NCBI GenBank assembly: GCA_903832625.1 | Contig: CAILCI010000060.1 | Span: 1 to 64,000, forward strand | Direction: 5' to 3' | DNA from: an uncultured Burkholderiales bacterium | Lineage (GTDB): Bacteria > Pseudomonadota > Gammaproteobacteria > Burkholderiales > Burkholderiaceae_C | Length of the DNA stretch: 64,000 bases | In this document: piece after piece, positions 11,048-16,699 of the stretch | How positions within the stretch are numbered: the first letter of the stretch is position 1 | Layout of the letters: every line of letters begins with the position of its first letter | The notes under the pieces: model-generated | What the model saw: the letters and a program-made list of their open reading frames with translations, nothing else | Told to the model about the DNA's origin: nothing | The model's database searches: none | Made by a program: the position numbers and the translations under genes

Positions 11048-12400
<1,353 letters not shown>

Positions 12401-12438: not shown

Positions 12439-12529
12439 GGAGCGATGGCAGAGTGGTCGAATGCGCCGGACTCGAAATCCGGTATACGGGTCTCCCGTAT
12501 CGAGGGTTCGAATCCCTCTTGCTCCGCCA
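12439..12529 (+). tRNA. tRNA-Ser, anticodon CGA, encoded CCA
   Basis: Acceptor stem GGAGCGA/TTGCTCC, discriminator G + CCA, anticodon loop ctCGAaa, long variable arm, T-arm GGTTCGAATCC. Confidence 0.95.
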
Positions 12530-12570
12530 ATTCATATTAATTCGCCAATATTGAACGGCTTATTTATTTG

Positions 12571-14436
12571 ATGAACCCAACGCCATCTAAATTTGTTGTG
12601 GCTCATTTTGAACATGTTGTTTATACAAGGCAGCATGAAACGGCGGGTCGCCAACTTATTCAATTGTTGGCTTTATTAGATGGCAGCTATGGCAATATTC
12701 CCCACGAATTAGAAGTTCGGGGCTATAGCTTATTTAAAACCCGCGAAGATTTTTTAGACCATGTATTTACGCGCATTGCTGCGGCTATTACTACGCTTTT
12801 TTGCGATCCAGATTTTCAATTGAGTCCAACTGGGTTTTTGCAATTGCTGCCGTTCCAGCGCTGGATTGGGGTGATTTTTTCATACACACCCATGCGCAAC
12901 GCCGATCATGTGATTTACAGCCTAAACAACCTTGGACAAGACAGCGATGTGGTGCAGTGGGCGTCAAAAGACGTTTACAAAATGGCTTTGTTAACGTTGC
13001 CAGATTCTGAAATACCCATCGATTTAGACATGATCTGGAGTGTCAGCCCCGCTTTGGCGGTAAGTTTGGCCTCGATTTGGGTCACGCCGCGTTTATTGGG
13101 AACCCCAGTCGCACATCACCGAAGAGAGGTGGTTTTAGGTTGGTTGCCAGATAAATTAAACGAGTTGAGTTTGGTCGATTTAGACAGCATTCCAAAAAGC
13201 TGTTGGCATGATTTGTACATGCATTGCAGTTATGCGCAACGCGTTGACAAACATCGCATTAAAAAATCAGTCCATGAGGCGTGCAATCGCTTATTGAACC
13301 ACGCAGGAATCAATGATTTACCGCCAATACCAGCCTCCAAACTGGCCTATAAAAATGGCAAGCCTGTGATGTTGGTATTGCTGGAATGGTTTCATGCAGC
13401 GCATTCTATTTATCGAACGCATTCCATGTCATTGCGGGCGGCCAGCGAGAGCTTTTACTTGATTGGCATGGGTATTTCCACCAGCGTGGATTCTTTTGGG
13501 CGCGAAGTATTTGACGAATTCATTGAGCTAAACCCTGCTTCGGTATTTGAGCAAGTCATACAAATTCGTGAGGTGTGCGAGAAAAACCAAGCGGCAGTTT
13601 TATATATGCCCTCTGTGGGGATGAATTTAGTCACCATATTCACCGCCAGTTTGCGCTTTGCGCCTTTGCAGCTCACAGCCTTGGGGCATGGCGCATCGAC
13701 TCAATCGCCATGGGTCGATTATTTTGCGGTGGACGAAGATTTTGTGGGCGATCAATCCACTTTCAGCGAAAAAATCATTGCCTTACCTGTAGATGCCATG
13801 CCGATTGTGGCGTCGTCTGCCCTAGACCGAGAAGCTTTAACGCCTCATATTATTGAAAAACCCGACGTCGTGAAAATAGCCATTGCGGCCACGACCATGA
13901 AAGTCAACCCACTCTATTTAGAAACACTGCGCCTCATTGCAGAAAAATCGCCACAAAAAATTCAATTTGAATTCTTTATAGGCTTTGCGACCGAATTGAT
14001 ATGGCCTTTGGTGCGGCGCATGATTCATACCATTTTGGGTGACTCTGCGGTTGTGTATCACCATTTAGCCTACCCGCAATACATGGAAAAAATGAACCAA
14101 TGCGATATGTTCATCACACCATTTCCGTATGGCAATATGAACGGTATTTCAGATGCAGTGACCTGCGGCCTGGTTGGCGTGTGCAAAAGCGGAGCACATG
14201 TGCATGAGCATATTGATGTGGGTTTATTTCAACGCTTAGGGCTGCCTAAATGGGCTATTGCTAATACACACGAAGAATATATAGACGCAGTGGTTCGCAT
14301 GGCCAACGCCCATGCCGAACGCGCAGAATTAAGAAGAGAATTATTGAAACGCAAGCCTGTGGAAACACTGCACAAAGGCAGGCCGGAGTTGTTTGGTAGA
14401 GCGATATTGAAATTGTTGAATACGACAACGGCGTGA
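12571..14436 (+). CDS. HMW1C-like cytoplasmic N-glucosyltransferase (GT41-related)
   Basis: Resembles ApNGT/HMW1C from recall along the length: 'QLIQLLALLDGSYGNI', 'MATAITTLF'-like 'IAAAITTLFCDP', 'HDLYMHCSYAQRVDKH', 'NGKPVMLVLLEWFHAAHSIYRTHSMS', 'FYMPS'-like 'LYMPSVGMNLVTIF', 'TTMKVNPLYLETL', 'CDMFITPFPYGNMNGISDAVTCGLVGVCKSGAHVHEHIDVGLFQRLGLP'. Confidence 0.88.
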   Translation: MNPTPSKFVVAHFEHVVYTRQHETAGRQLIQLLALLDGSYGNIPHELEVRGYSLFKTREDFLDHVFTRIAAAITTLFCDPDFQLSPTGFLQLLPFQRWIGVIFSYTPMRNADHVIYSLNNLGQDSDVVQWASKDVYKMALLTLPDSEIPIDLDMIWSVSPALAVSLASIWVTPRLLGTPVAHHRREVVLGWLPDKLNELSLVDLDSIPKSCWHDLYMHCSYAQRVDKHRIKKSVHEACNRLLNHAGINDLPPIPASKLAYKNGKPVMLVLLEWFHAAHSIYRTHSMSLRAASESFYLIGMGISTSVDSFGREVFDEFIELNPASVFEQVIQIREVCEKNQAAVLYMPSVGMNLVTIFTASLRFAPLQLTALGHGASTQSPWVDYFAVDEDFVGDQSTFSEKIIALPVDAMPIVASSALDREALTPHIIEKPDVVKIAIAATTMKVNPLYLETLRLIAEKSPQKIQFEFFIGFATELIWPLVRRMIHTILGDSAVVYHHLAYPQYMEKMNQCDMFITPFPYGNMNGISDAVTCGLVGVCKSGAHVHEHIDVGLFQRLGLPKWAIANTHEEYIDAVVRMANAHAERAELRRELLKRKPVETLHKGRPELFGRAILKLLNTTTA

Positions 14437-14587
14437 GCCGTAAGCCCGAGCAAACTCAGATCACTTTGCTCTTATTCAAATCTTAATTAATAAATAATAG
14501 TTATTCCAACGTAAATATACTTTGAAACCCCAATTTTCTTTGGCATTTCGAGAAGTAAACTCCTGCGACAAAAATCTAGGAGTGAAT

Positions 14588-15400
14588 ATGTCTGGGCAGT
14601 CAGTAATTGCAAACACATGGAAAACAAAAGTCGAACATTTCATCATGCAGCACTCAGTGCAAAACTTTATTGTTTTTCTGATCGTCTTGAATGCTGCCTT
14701 GCTGGGGTTAGAAACTAATCCGCAAATTACGCAAACTTATGGCGCAATATTGACATGGTTTGATCACGTCATTTTGGGCATCTTTACCTTGGAAATTGTT
14801 TTGCTCATTGGCGTGCGAGGCTGGGCTTTTTTCAAAGATCCTTGGTGCATTTTCGATTTCATTGTGGTCGGCATTGCCTTGGTGCCAGCCACTGAAGCCT
14901 TGTCGGTCTTGCGTTCGTTGCGCGTGTTGCGGGTCTTGCGATTGATCAACAAAGTAGAGAGCATGCGCAAAGTTGTGGGTGGTTTGCTGCACTCATTGCC
15001 TGGGTTGGGTTCCGTATTTAGCCTGATTTTGATTATTTTTTATGTCTCAGGCGTCATTACCACCAATGAGTTTGGCCGCGAATTTCCAGAGTTTTTTGGC
15101 GATCTGGGCAACAGTTTTTTCACCTTGTTTCAAGTCATGACCTTGGAGAGTTGGTCTGACAGCATTGCCCGTCCGGTGATGGAGAAATTTCCCTATGCGT
15201 GGACTTTCTTCGTGTTGTTTATTCTGATTGCAACTTTCATCATCGTGAATTTGTTTATCGCTGTGATTGTGGATTCCCTCAACGCCCACACCAAAGAAGA
15301 AGACGATGCCAATGGCATCAAATCGCCTGCAGAAATTGAAATCATTGCCTTGAAAAAAGAAATCATCGAATTGAAAGAGCTGATTCACGCCAAACTTTAG
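14588..15400 (+). CDS. Bacterial one-domain voltage-gated cation channel (NaChBac/NavAb-like)
   Basis: 6TM ion-transport sequence; S4 'RSLRVLRVLRLINKV'; pore 'FFTLFQVMTLESWSDSIARPVM'; S6 'FFVLFILIATFIIVNLFIAVIVDSL'; C-terminal coiled coil. RBS 'taggag' before ATG 14588. Confidence 0.93.
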   Translation: MSGQSVIANTWKTKVEHFIMQHSVQNFIVFLIVLNAALLGLETNPQITQTYGAILTWFDHVILGIFTLEIVLLIGVRGWAFFKDPWCIFDFIVVGIALVPATEALSVLRSLRVLRVLRLINKVESMRKVVGGLLHSLPGLGSVFSLILIIFYVSGVITTNEFGREFPEFFGDLGNSFFTLFQVMTLESWSDSIARPVMEKFPYAWTFFVLFILIATFIIVNLFIAVIVDSLNAHTKEEDDANGIKSPAEIEIIALKKEIIELKELIHAKL

Positions 15401-15499
15401 GCCAAATGCTTTGCGTGAAATAGGATAAATGGCCCGACAACTCTCCTAAAATTCAATTGTGTTGCGTTCACCCAATTGAATTCCTAATCGGAGTCGCGT

Positions 15500-16699
15500 T
15501 TGAAACTGTTGGCCTTTATCTTGAAATGGACGCTGCTTGCCAGCTTTGTGGCGGTGCTGGCGGGCACGGCTTCGGCGGCGTTTTTATGGGCGCTGGATTG
15601 GGCGGGCACCACGCGAGACGCGCATTTGCAAATGATTTGGGCACTGCCCTTGGTCGGTTTTTTTGTGGGCTGGGTGTATCACCAACTCGGGCGCGATGTG
15701 GAGGCCGGCAACAACTTGTTGATCGATGAGATTCACGACCCCAAAAAAATCGTGCCTCTGCGCATGGCACCTTTGATTTTGTTCTCCACCATTGCCTCGC
15801 ATGTGTTTGGCGCCTCGGTCGGTCGCGAAGGCACGGCGGTTCAAATGGGTGGAAGCTTGGCCGATCAACTCAGTCATATATTCAAATTCAACAAAGATGA
15901 GCGCCGCTTGGTATTGATGGCCGGCATGAGCGCAGGTTTTGCGGCGGTGTTTGGCACGCCCTTGGCCGGCGCAGTGTTTGCCTTGGAAGTACTGGCCGTG
16001 GGCCGACTGCGCTATGACGCGCTGTGGCCTTGCGCGTTGGCCGCGCTGGTGGCTGATCAGGTGTGTTTGTGGTGGGGCATTGAGCACACAGCGTATGCGG
16101 TGGGGAATATTCCTCATGCCAGTGTTTGGCTCATCACAGCCGTGGCTATTGTGGGCGCTGCTTGTGGTGTGACCGGGCAAATGTTTGCCAAATCCACCCA
16201 TGTGTTGTCGGCTTGGATGAAAAACCAAGTGAGTTACGCCCCGTTGCGGCCGCTTTTGGGTGGGATCGTTGTTGTTTTATTGATCGAATATTTGGATTTT
16301 GCAAGATATATGGGGTTGGGCATTCCTGTCATTCAGGAAGCATTTATTCATCCACTGGCTTGGACAGACGCAGCTGGCAAGTTTGTGCTGACCGTGCTCT
16401 CCTTGGGCGCTGGATTCAAGGGTGGCGAAGTCACGCCCTTGTTTTTTATAGGCGCCACGCTGGGAAACACGCTGGCGGGCTTGCTGGATGTGCCTTTTGC
16501 TTTGATGGCGGCCGTGGGTTTTGTGGCTGTTTTTGCGGGTGCGGCCAATACGCCGCTGGCGTGTACGCTGATGGCGATTGAATTGTTTGGTTCTCAAATT
16601 GGTATTTATGCTTTGATTGGATGTGTGTTAAGTTATTCGTTTTCGGGTCGAAGCGGTATTTACCGCGCTCAGCTTAAAACGAATGTCAAGCATGTATGA
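15500..16699 (+). CDS. ClC-family anion channel/antiporter, possible CLC-F fluoride clade
   Basis: ClC sequence with 'GNNLLIDEIHDP', 'GASVGREGTAVQMGG', 'GAGFKGGEVTPLFFIGATLGN'; TTG start with cggag upstream. Confidence 0.85.
   Translation: MKLLAFILKWTLLASFVAVLAGTASAAFLWALDWAGTTRDAHLQMIWALPLVGFFVGWVYHQLGRDVEAGNNLLIDEIHDPKKIVPLRMAPLILFSTIASHVFGASVGREGTAVQMGGSLADQLSHIFKFNKDERRLVLMAGMSAGFAAVFGTPLAGAVFALEVLAVGRLRYDALWPCALAALVADQVCLWWGIEHTAYAVGNIPHASVWLITAVAIVGAACGVTGQMFAKSTHVLSAWMKNQVSYAPLRPLLGGIVVVLLIEYLDFARYMGLGIPVIQEAFIHPLAWTDAAGKFVLTVLSLGAGFKGGEVTPLFFIGATLGNTLAGLLDVPFALMAAVGFVAVFAGAANTPLACTLMAIELFGSQIGIYALIGCVLSYSFSGRSGIYRAQLKTNVKHV

Follow-up and report, generated by a model that had tools for sequence, protein, structure and literature searches.

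In the window, that is, the whole stretch of 64,000 nucleotides that was analysed, a gene for an HMW1C-like N-glycosyltransferase (NGT) lies between a tRNA gene and an ion-channel gene, with the following features around it:

11078 to 12400, forward strand: serS, a core gene and the left flank of the islet
12439 to 12529, forward strand: tRNA-Ser(CGA), left border of the islet, 41 bases ahead of the NGT start
12530 to 15499 (ends approximate), no strand: low-GC islet with the NGT and ion-channel genes, missing from the sister genome G185
12571 to 14436, forward strand: HMW1C-like N-glycosyltransferase gene, 621 aa, with all-alpha domains (AAD; HMW1C_N and HMw1_D2) and a GT-B catalytic domain
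14522 to 15400, forward strand: ion channel of the voltage-gated type (Ion_trans), a Pfam match
15500 to 16699, forward strand: ClC-type chloride channel, right flank of the islet

The two neighbours named in the original prediction, tRNA-Ser (12439-12529) and an ion channel (14522-15400, Ion_trans), are indeed those found. GC content is about 56% outside the islet and 43-46% from the end of tRNA-Ser (12529) to about 15450, and third-position GC is 0.48 in the NGT gene versus 0.70 in serS. The sister genome G185 (L047) has serS, tRNA-Ser, ClC, the same hypothetical gene and ccmA, without NGT or channel gene between tRNA-Ser and ClC; ClC directly follows the tRNA there, which constitutes an empty site. 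In other sisters the same interval carries a subtilase and a TonB receptor (L045, 1456-9763) or two CHAT-TPR proteins (L046, 1968-9885). Since sisters carry other cargo or none, the stretch from tRNA-Ser(CGA) to ClC is a variable site, a hot spot whose cargo differs by species. Many genomes of the genus have Ion_trans homologues with 54-70% identity at other places, and no association of an ion channel with an NGT was seen at other NGT loci. We do not claim an integrative element, because no integrase gene was found and no second copy of the tRNA 3' end on the right side of the islet. As no clear Shine-Dalgarno-like sequence stands ahead of the NGT ATG and a promoter search on the forward strand upstream of the gene returned no promoter-like site, the gene may be transcribed by read-through from the tRNA unit.

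The NGT open reading frame starts with an ATG at 12571, extends with its stop to 14436 and is an intact frame of 621 codons. HMW1C_N (5e-20) and HMw1_D2 (4e-21) both match above the Pfam gathering cut-off, and this AAD part is joined to the GT-B part over the full length of the protein. The structure of the Actinobacillus pleuropneumoniae enzyme (ApNGT, also ApHMW1C; PDB 3q3e) aligns with residues 7-618 (phmmer E 2.9e-166), at 44% identity to ApNGT and 42-43% to AaNGT of Aggregatibacter aphrophilus (PDB 8p0o/8p0q). A chance or mis-annotated frame at 12571-14436 is excluded by the intact frame and the homology to 3q3e. NCBIfam NF049992, the equivalog model for UDP-glucose:protein N-beta-glucosyltransferase, matches with 667.6 bits (E 1.9e-200) over 4-611 of its 614 positions; because this is below the curated cut-off of 1000 bits, the protein is best read as a homologue that is not assignable to the equivalog. 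The O-type GT41 enzymes XcOGT (E 4e-5) and SPINDLY (E 0.02) score much lower, which places the protein among the N-type and not the O-type enzymes. In agreement with the original prediction, all three quoted HMW1C/ApNGT landmark motifs are present in this frame, the Pfam, NF049992 and 3q3e matches are far beyond chance, and the proposed check for a better score to a non-NGT family found XcOGT and SPINDLY far below the NGT structures. The structure prediction that it had also proposed gave 3q3e as the top fold match (TM about 0.7) for an AlphaFold model of low confidence (pLDDT 60), built from four sequences, from which no pocket geometry was taken. On this homology, the gene encodes a full-length HMW1C-like N-glycosyltransferase of GT41, of the all-alpha-domain type.

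We compared the positions described as important for these enzymes (PMC10507012) in an alignment of the window NGT, 35 other homologues, ApNGT and AaNGT. In AaNGT, the R177A and D215A mutants are inactive and H214A has an 11-fold lower activity (PMC10507012); these sequon-reading side chains are kept in the window protein as R174, D214 and H213, respectively. Identical residues also stand at H276, S277 and R280 (H278, S279 and R282 in the window protein), G369 and H370 (G372, H373), T437 and K440 (T441, K444), H494 and Y500 (H498, Y504), and N520, G521 and D524 (N524, G525, D528). Nine side chains that contact the UDP-sugar (H276, S277, R280, T437, K440, H494, Y500, N520, D524) are thus all identical, and the pyrophosphate side-chain contacts of AaNGT are shared. 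Every sequon-reading side chain tested and nearly all of those binding UDP-glucose are conserved, and the contact positions that distinguish the window protein from both ApNGT and AaNGT are Q468F (F472), a contact of the peptide +1 residue, S495L (L499), a uracil contact, and T519M (M523), a backbone contact in the phosphate loop (AaNGT numbering); H271W (W273) is a further substitution. Outside the Pasteurellaceae-type group of ApNGT and AaNGT, tryptophan is usual at 271 and position 495 varies; phenylalanine at 468 also occurs in L130 and L132, and methionine at 519 also in L010. From its residues, the window NGT is predicted to be active as an N-glucosyltransferase. UDP-glucose could come from a GalU homologue that the genome encodes.

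NGT genes are present in 7 of 84 genomes of the genus, where the window NGT is the only one found of its type. The NGTs of the other six congeners are of a different type, with 43-44% identity to it, and group with L011. Forcing the window NGT into one clade with them was rejected (p-AU 4.8e-7), which rules out that it was inherited vertically along with the other NGTs of the genus and indicates a separate acquisition, as judged from the sequence tree. The nearest protein in the tree is L010 of genome G391 (sister, support 97/87), encoded next to a branched-chain-amino-acid-type transporter operon, and the g31 NGT1 proteins (L005-L009; 50-51% identity), encoded at the edge of sugar-nucleotide/glycosyltransferase clusters, are also near (neighbourhoods from open-reading-frame listings by eye). 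L010 and the g31 NGTs belong to the same family as the window NGT and stand on long branches. Relatives are found on plasmids of Caballeronia, Cupriavidus, Paraburkholderia, Escherichia, Salmonella and Edwardsiella. In plasmid records, NGT homologues bear the labels "peptide transporter" or "cobalt ABC transporter permease", so that a keyword search misses them. A phage collection and viral contigs gave no relative, which leaves an origin as phage cargo unsupported.

A second HMW1C-like paralogue, NGT2 (L015-L018; also L058, L059 and L062), is kept in four g31 genomes although its sequon-reading and donor contacts are lost (R177 to N/T, D215 to Q, H276 to F, S277 to A, T437 to A/S), and a third g31 paralogue, L019, has S, P and P at R177, H214 and D215; a new specificity of such paralogues is possible from these residues. 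Like the window NGT, NGT2 follows closely on serS, from which a TctC-like gene separates it (L058, 2019-6373; L062), and this shared neighbourhood goes with only about 36% identity between the two proteins.

The original prediction described the enzyme as having no adhesin partner. This is true of its contig, on which searches for two-partner-secretion (TPS) adhesins and TpsB gave no match, but not of the genome, in which profile matches revealed three TPS-domain open reading frames and one TpsB. Contig C12 carries TPS-domain frames of 1232 and 350 aa together with the only TpsB (ShlB), and contig C32 one of 2826 aa; the lack of a local adhesin link is consistent with these being the only places of such matches. 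The locus is neither of the HMW1ABC type, with tpsA and tpsB adjoining the NGT, nor a rimO-ngt-agt operon, its neighbours being serS/tRNA-Ser and the ion channel. YadA_anchor, the mark of trimeric autotransporters, on which some unlinked NGTs act, had no match in the genome; autotransporter adhesins are the targets of reported unlinked NGTs (PMC5303269). TPS domains occur in all seven NGT-bearing genomes of the genus versus 48 of the 77 without NGT, a co-occurrence with a one-sided Fisher p of 0.045 that ignores relatedness and completeness. TPS-type (filamentous-haemagglutinin-type) adhesins adjoin the related NGT genes of Caballeronia, Paraburkholderia, Pseudomonas and a betaproteobacterial MAG. 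The congeners' NGTs (L222-L225, L227) and those on Caballeronia/Paraburkholderia plasmids (L228, L230) have a methyltransferase gene alongside and TPS adhesins near; this methyltransferase is FkbM-like by eye next to the congeners' NGTs, and methylation of the glycan is possible.

Sequon content was assessed by counting N-x-[ST] and, in each protein, also the reversed motif [ST]-x-N as a control for composition; sequons in repeats are not independent, so that all p-values are generous. The TPS adhesins of the genome have 125 forward versus 124 reversed motifs and those of the NGT-less sister G185 have 210 versus 190; the former are thus no more sequon-biased than the latter. Pooled NGT-adjacent adhesins reach 423 versus 265 (about 1.6-fold, p 9e-10), a signal that comes mainly from L230 (257 versus 128), several single adhesins being near parity. 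The g31 adhesins have 621 versus 392 (about 1.6-fold, p 3e-13), with 7/7 above parity; these TPS adhesins (L110-L116) contain up to 7.7 sequons per 100 aa, and their genomes carry NGT-like genes, mostly two or three. The comparison is a weak test, since some NGT-linked adhesins are also unbiased, and the absent bias fits a recent arrival of the NGT or other acceptors. The search for NXS/T-rich exported proteins that had been proposed, covering about 1.05 Mb of 2.62 Mb (about 40%), gave one further candidate, a Big_13 repeat adhesin on contig C52 (30 sequons versus 13 reversed), whose count is weak evidence because the domain repeats D-x-A-G-N-x-S and the sequons come back with each copy. In this part of the genome, non-surface proteins did not stand out as a sequon-rich class.

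Taken together, the locus probably holds an intact, horizontally acquired HMW1C-like N-glucosyltransferase that most likely acts on exported surface proteins whose genes lie elsewhere in the genome. What we observed are the homology, the conserved residues, the islet position, the candidate acceptors and the GalU homologue, from which we infer activity, donor, sequon use and acceptors. The enzyme would bind UDP-glucose in the cytoplasm through H278, S279, R282, K444, N524 and D528, with H498 and Y504 contacting uracil, and would transfer one glucose, with inversion, to the Asn of N-X-S/T in unfolded proteins. R174 and D214 would read the S/T of the sequon and H213 the +3 residue, and the acceptors might be the TPS adhesins encoded on C12 and C32, or else the C52 adhesin with its Big_13 repeats. 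The unenriched TPS adhesins, the NF049992 score below cut-off, Q468F, S495L and T519M, and the lack of an apparent Shine-Dalgarno sequence or promoter count against this adhesin model.

Some of these points would suit an active NGT that is retained for another reason and modifies cytoplasmic or envelope proteins in general. The missing adhesin linkage and the unenriched TPS adhesins agree with it, as does genome G391 of the tree neighbour L010, which has no TPS, TpsB or YadA-anchor match. Nevertheless, we consider it unlikely, given that about 40% of the genome yielded no sequon-rich class of non-surface proteins and that published unlinked NGTs act on surface adhesins (PMC5303269). The low-GC islet, the variable tRNA site, the status as sole such NGT in the genus, the adhesins without sequon enrichment and the lack of a clear ribosome-binding site might also point to a recent arrival or relic passenger, competent on paper, poorly expressed and with its dedicated acceptor still absent. 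This too seems improbable to us: the 621-codon frame is intact and, on a long branch, no essential side chain has been lost, which implies that purifying selection acted at some stage in the history of the NGT. That an HMW1C-fold enzyme has an altered specificity, using another sugar, another acceptor sequence or a glucoside acceptor, is suggested by Q468F, S495L, T519M and H271W relative to AaNGT and ApNGT and by the score below the equivalog cut-off. We regard it as very unlikely, since W271 and residues other than S495 are usual outside Pasteurellaceae-type enzymes, F468 recurs in L130 and L132, the Q469A mutation in ApNGT leads to higher activity (PMC10507012), and the S/T-reading residues are intact, unlike in g31 NGT2. 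A broader version, in which an adhesin-independent NGT that one species gained at a tRNA hot spot modifies proteins in the cytoplasm, either generally or with other targets, and phenylalanine at the Q469 position brings a new sequon preference, appears quite unlikely.

Under the preferred reading, an N-glucosyltransferase acting on exported surface proteins, the window NGT belongs to an already known category, the unlinked NGTs, published since 2014. The view that known examples usually adjoin an adhesin or an alpha-6-glucosyltransferase was therefore incomplete (PMC3983070, PMC5303269). A 2014 review distinguished HMW1C-like enzymes of TPS loci from a group without an obvious target in the locus, named Burkholderiaceae among the holders and considered the acceptors of unlinked NGTs an open question (PMC3983070); NGTs without an adjacent adhesin are known from A. 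pleuropneumoniae, H. ducreyi and K. kingae (PMC3983070, PMC5303269). ApNGT shares with the window NGT the full-length architecture, the donor and sequon residues and the lack of an adjoining adhesin, but lies in a rimO-ngt-agt operon with an alpha-6-glucosyltransferase and not behind tRNA-Ser in an ion-channel islet. H. influenzae HMW1C and ETEC EtpC are of the same enzyme family and are encoded in TPS loci with adhesin and exporter (PMC3983070), whereas the TPS genes of the present genome are on other contigs. Particular to the window NGT are the tRNA-side islet, the origin apart from the congeners' NGTs, the phenylalanine at the Q469 position and the unbiased resident adhesins.

If active, this would be a divergent NGT, with about 44% identity to ApNGT and a natural change at the engineered ApNGT position Q469, which might be useful for glycoengineering. 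Moreover, the adhesins of this genome lack the bias of pooled NGT-linked adhesins, so that the arrival of the enzyme and the evolution of its acceptors may be separable here.
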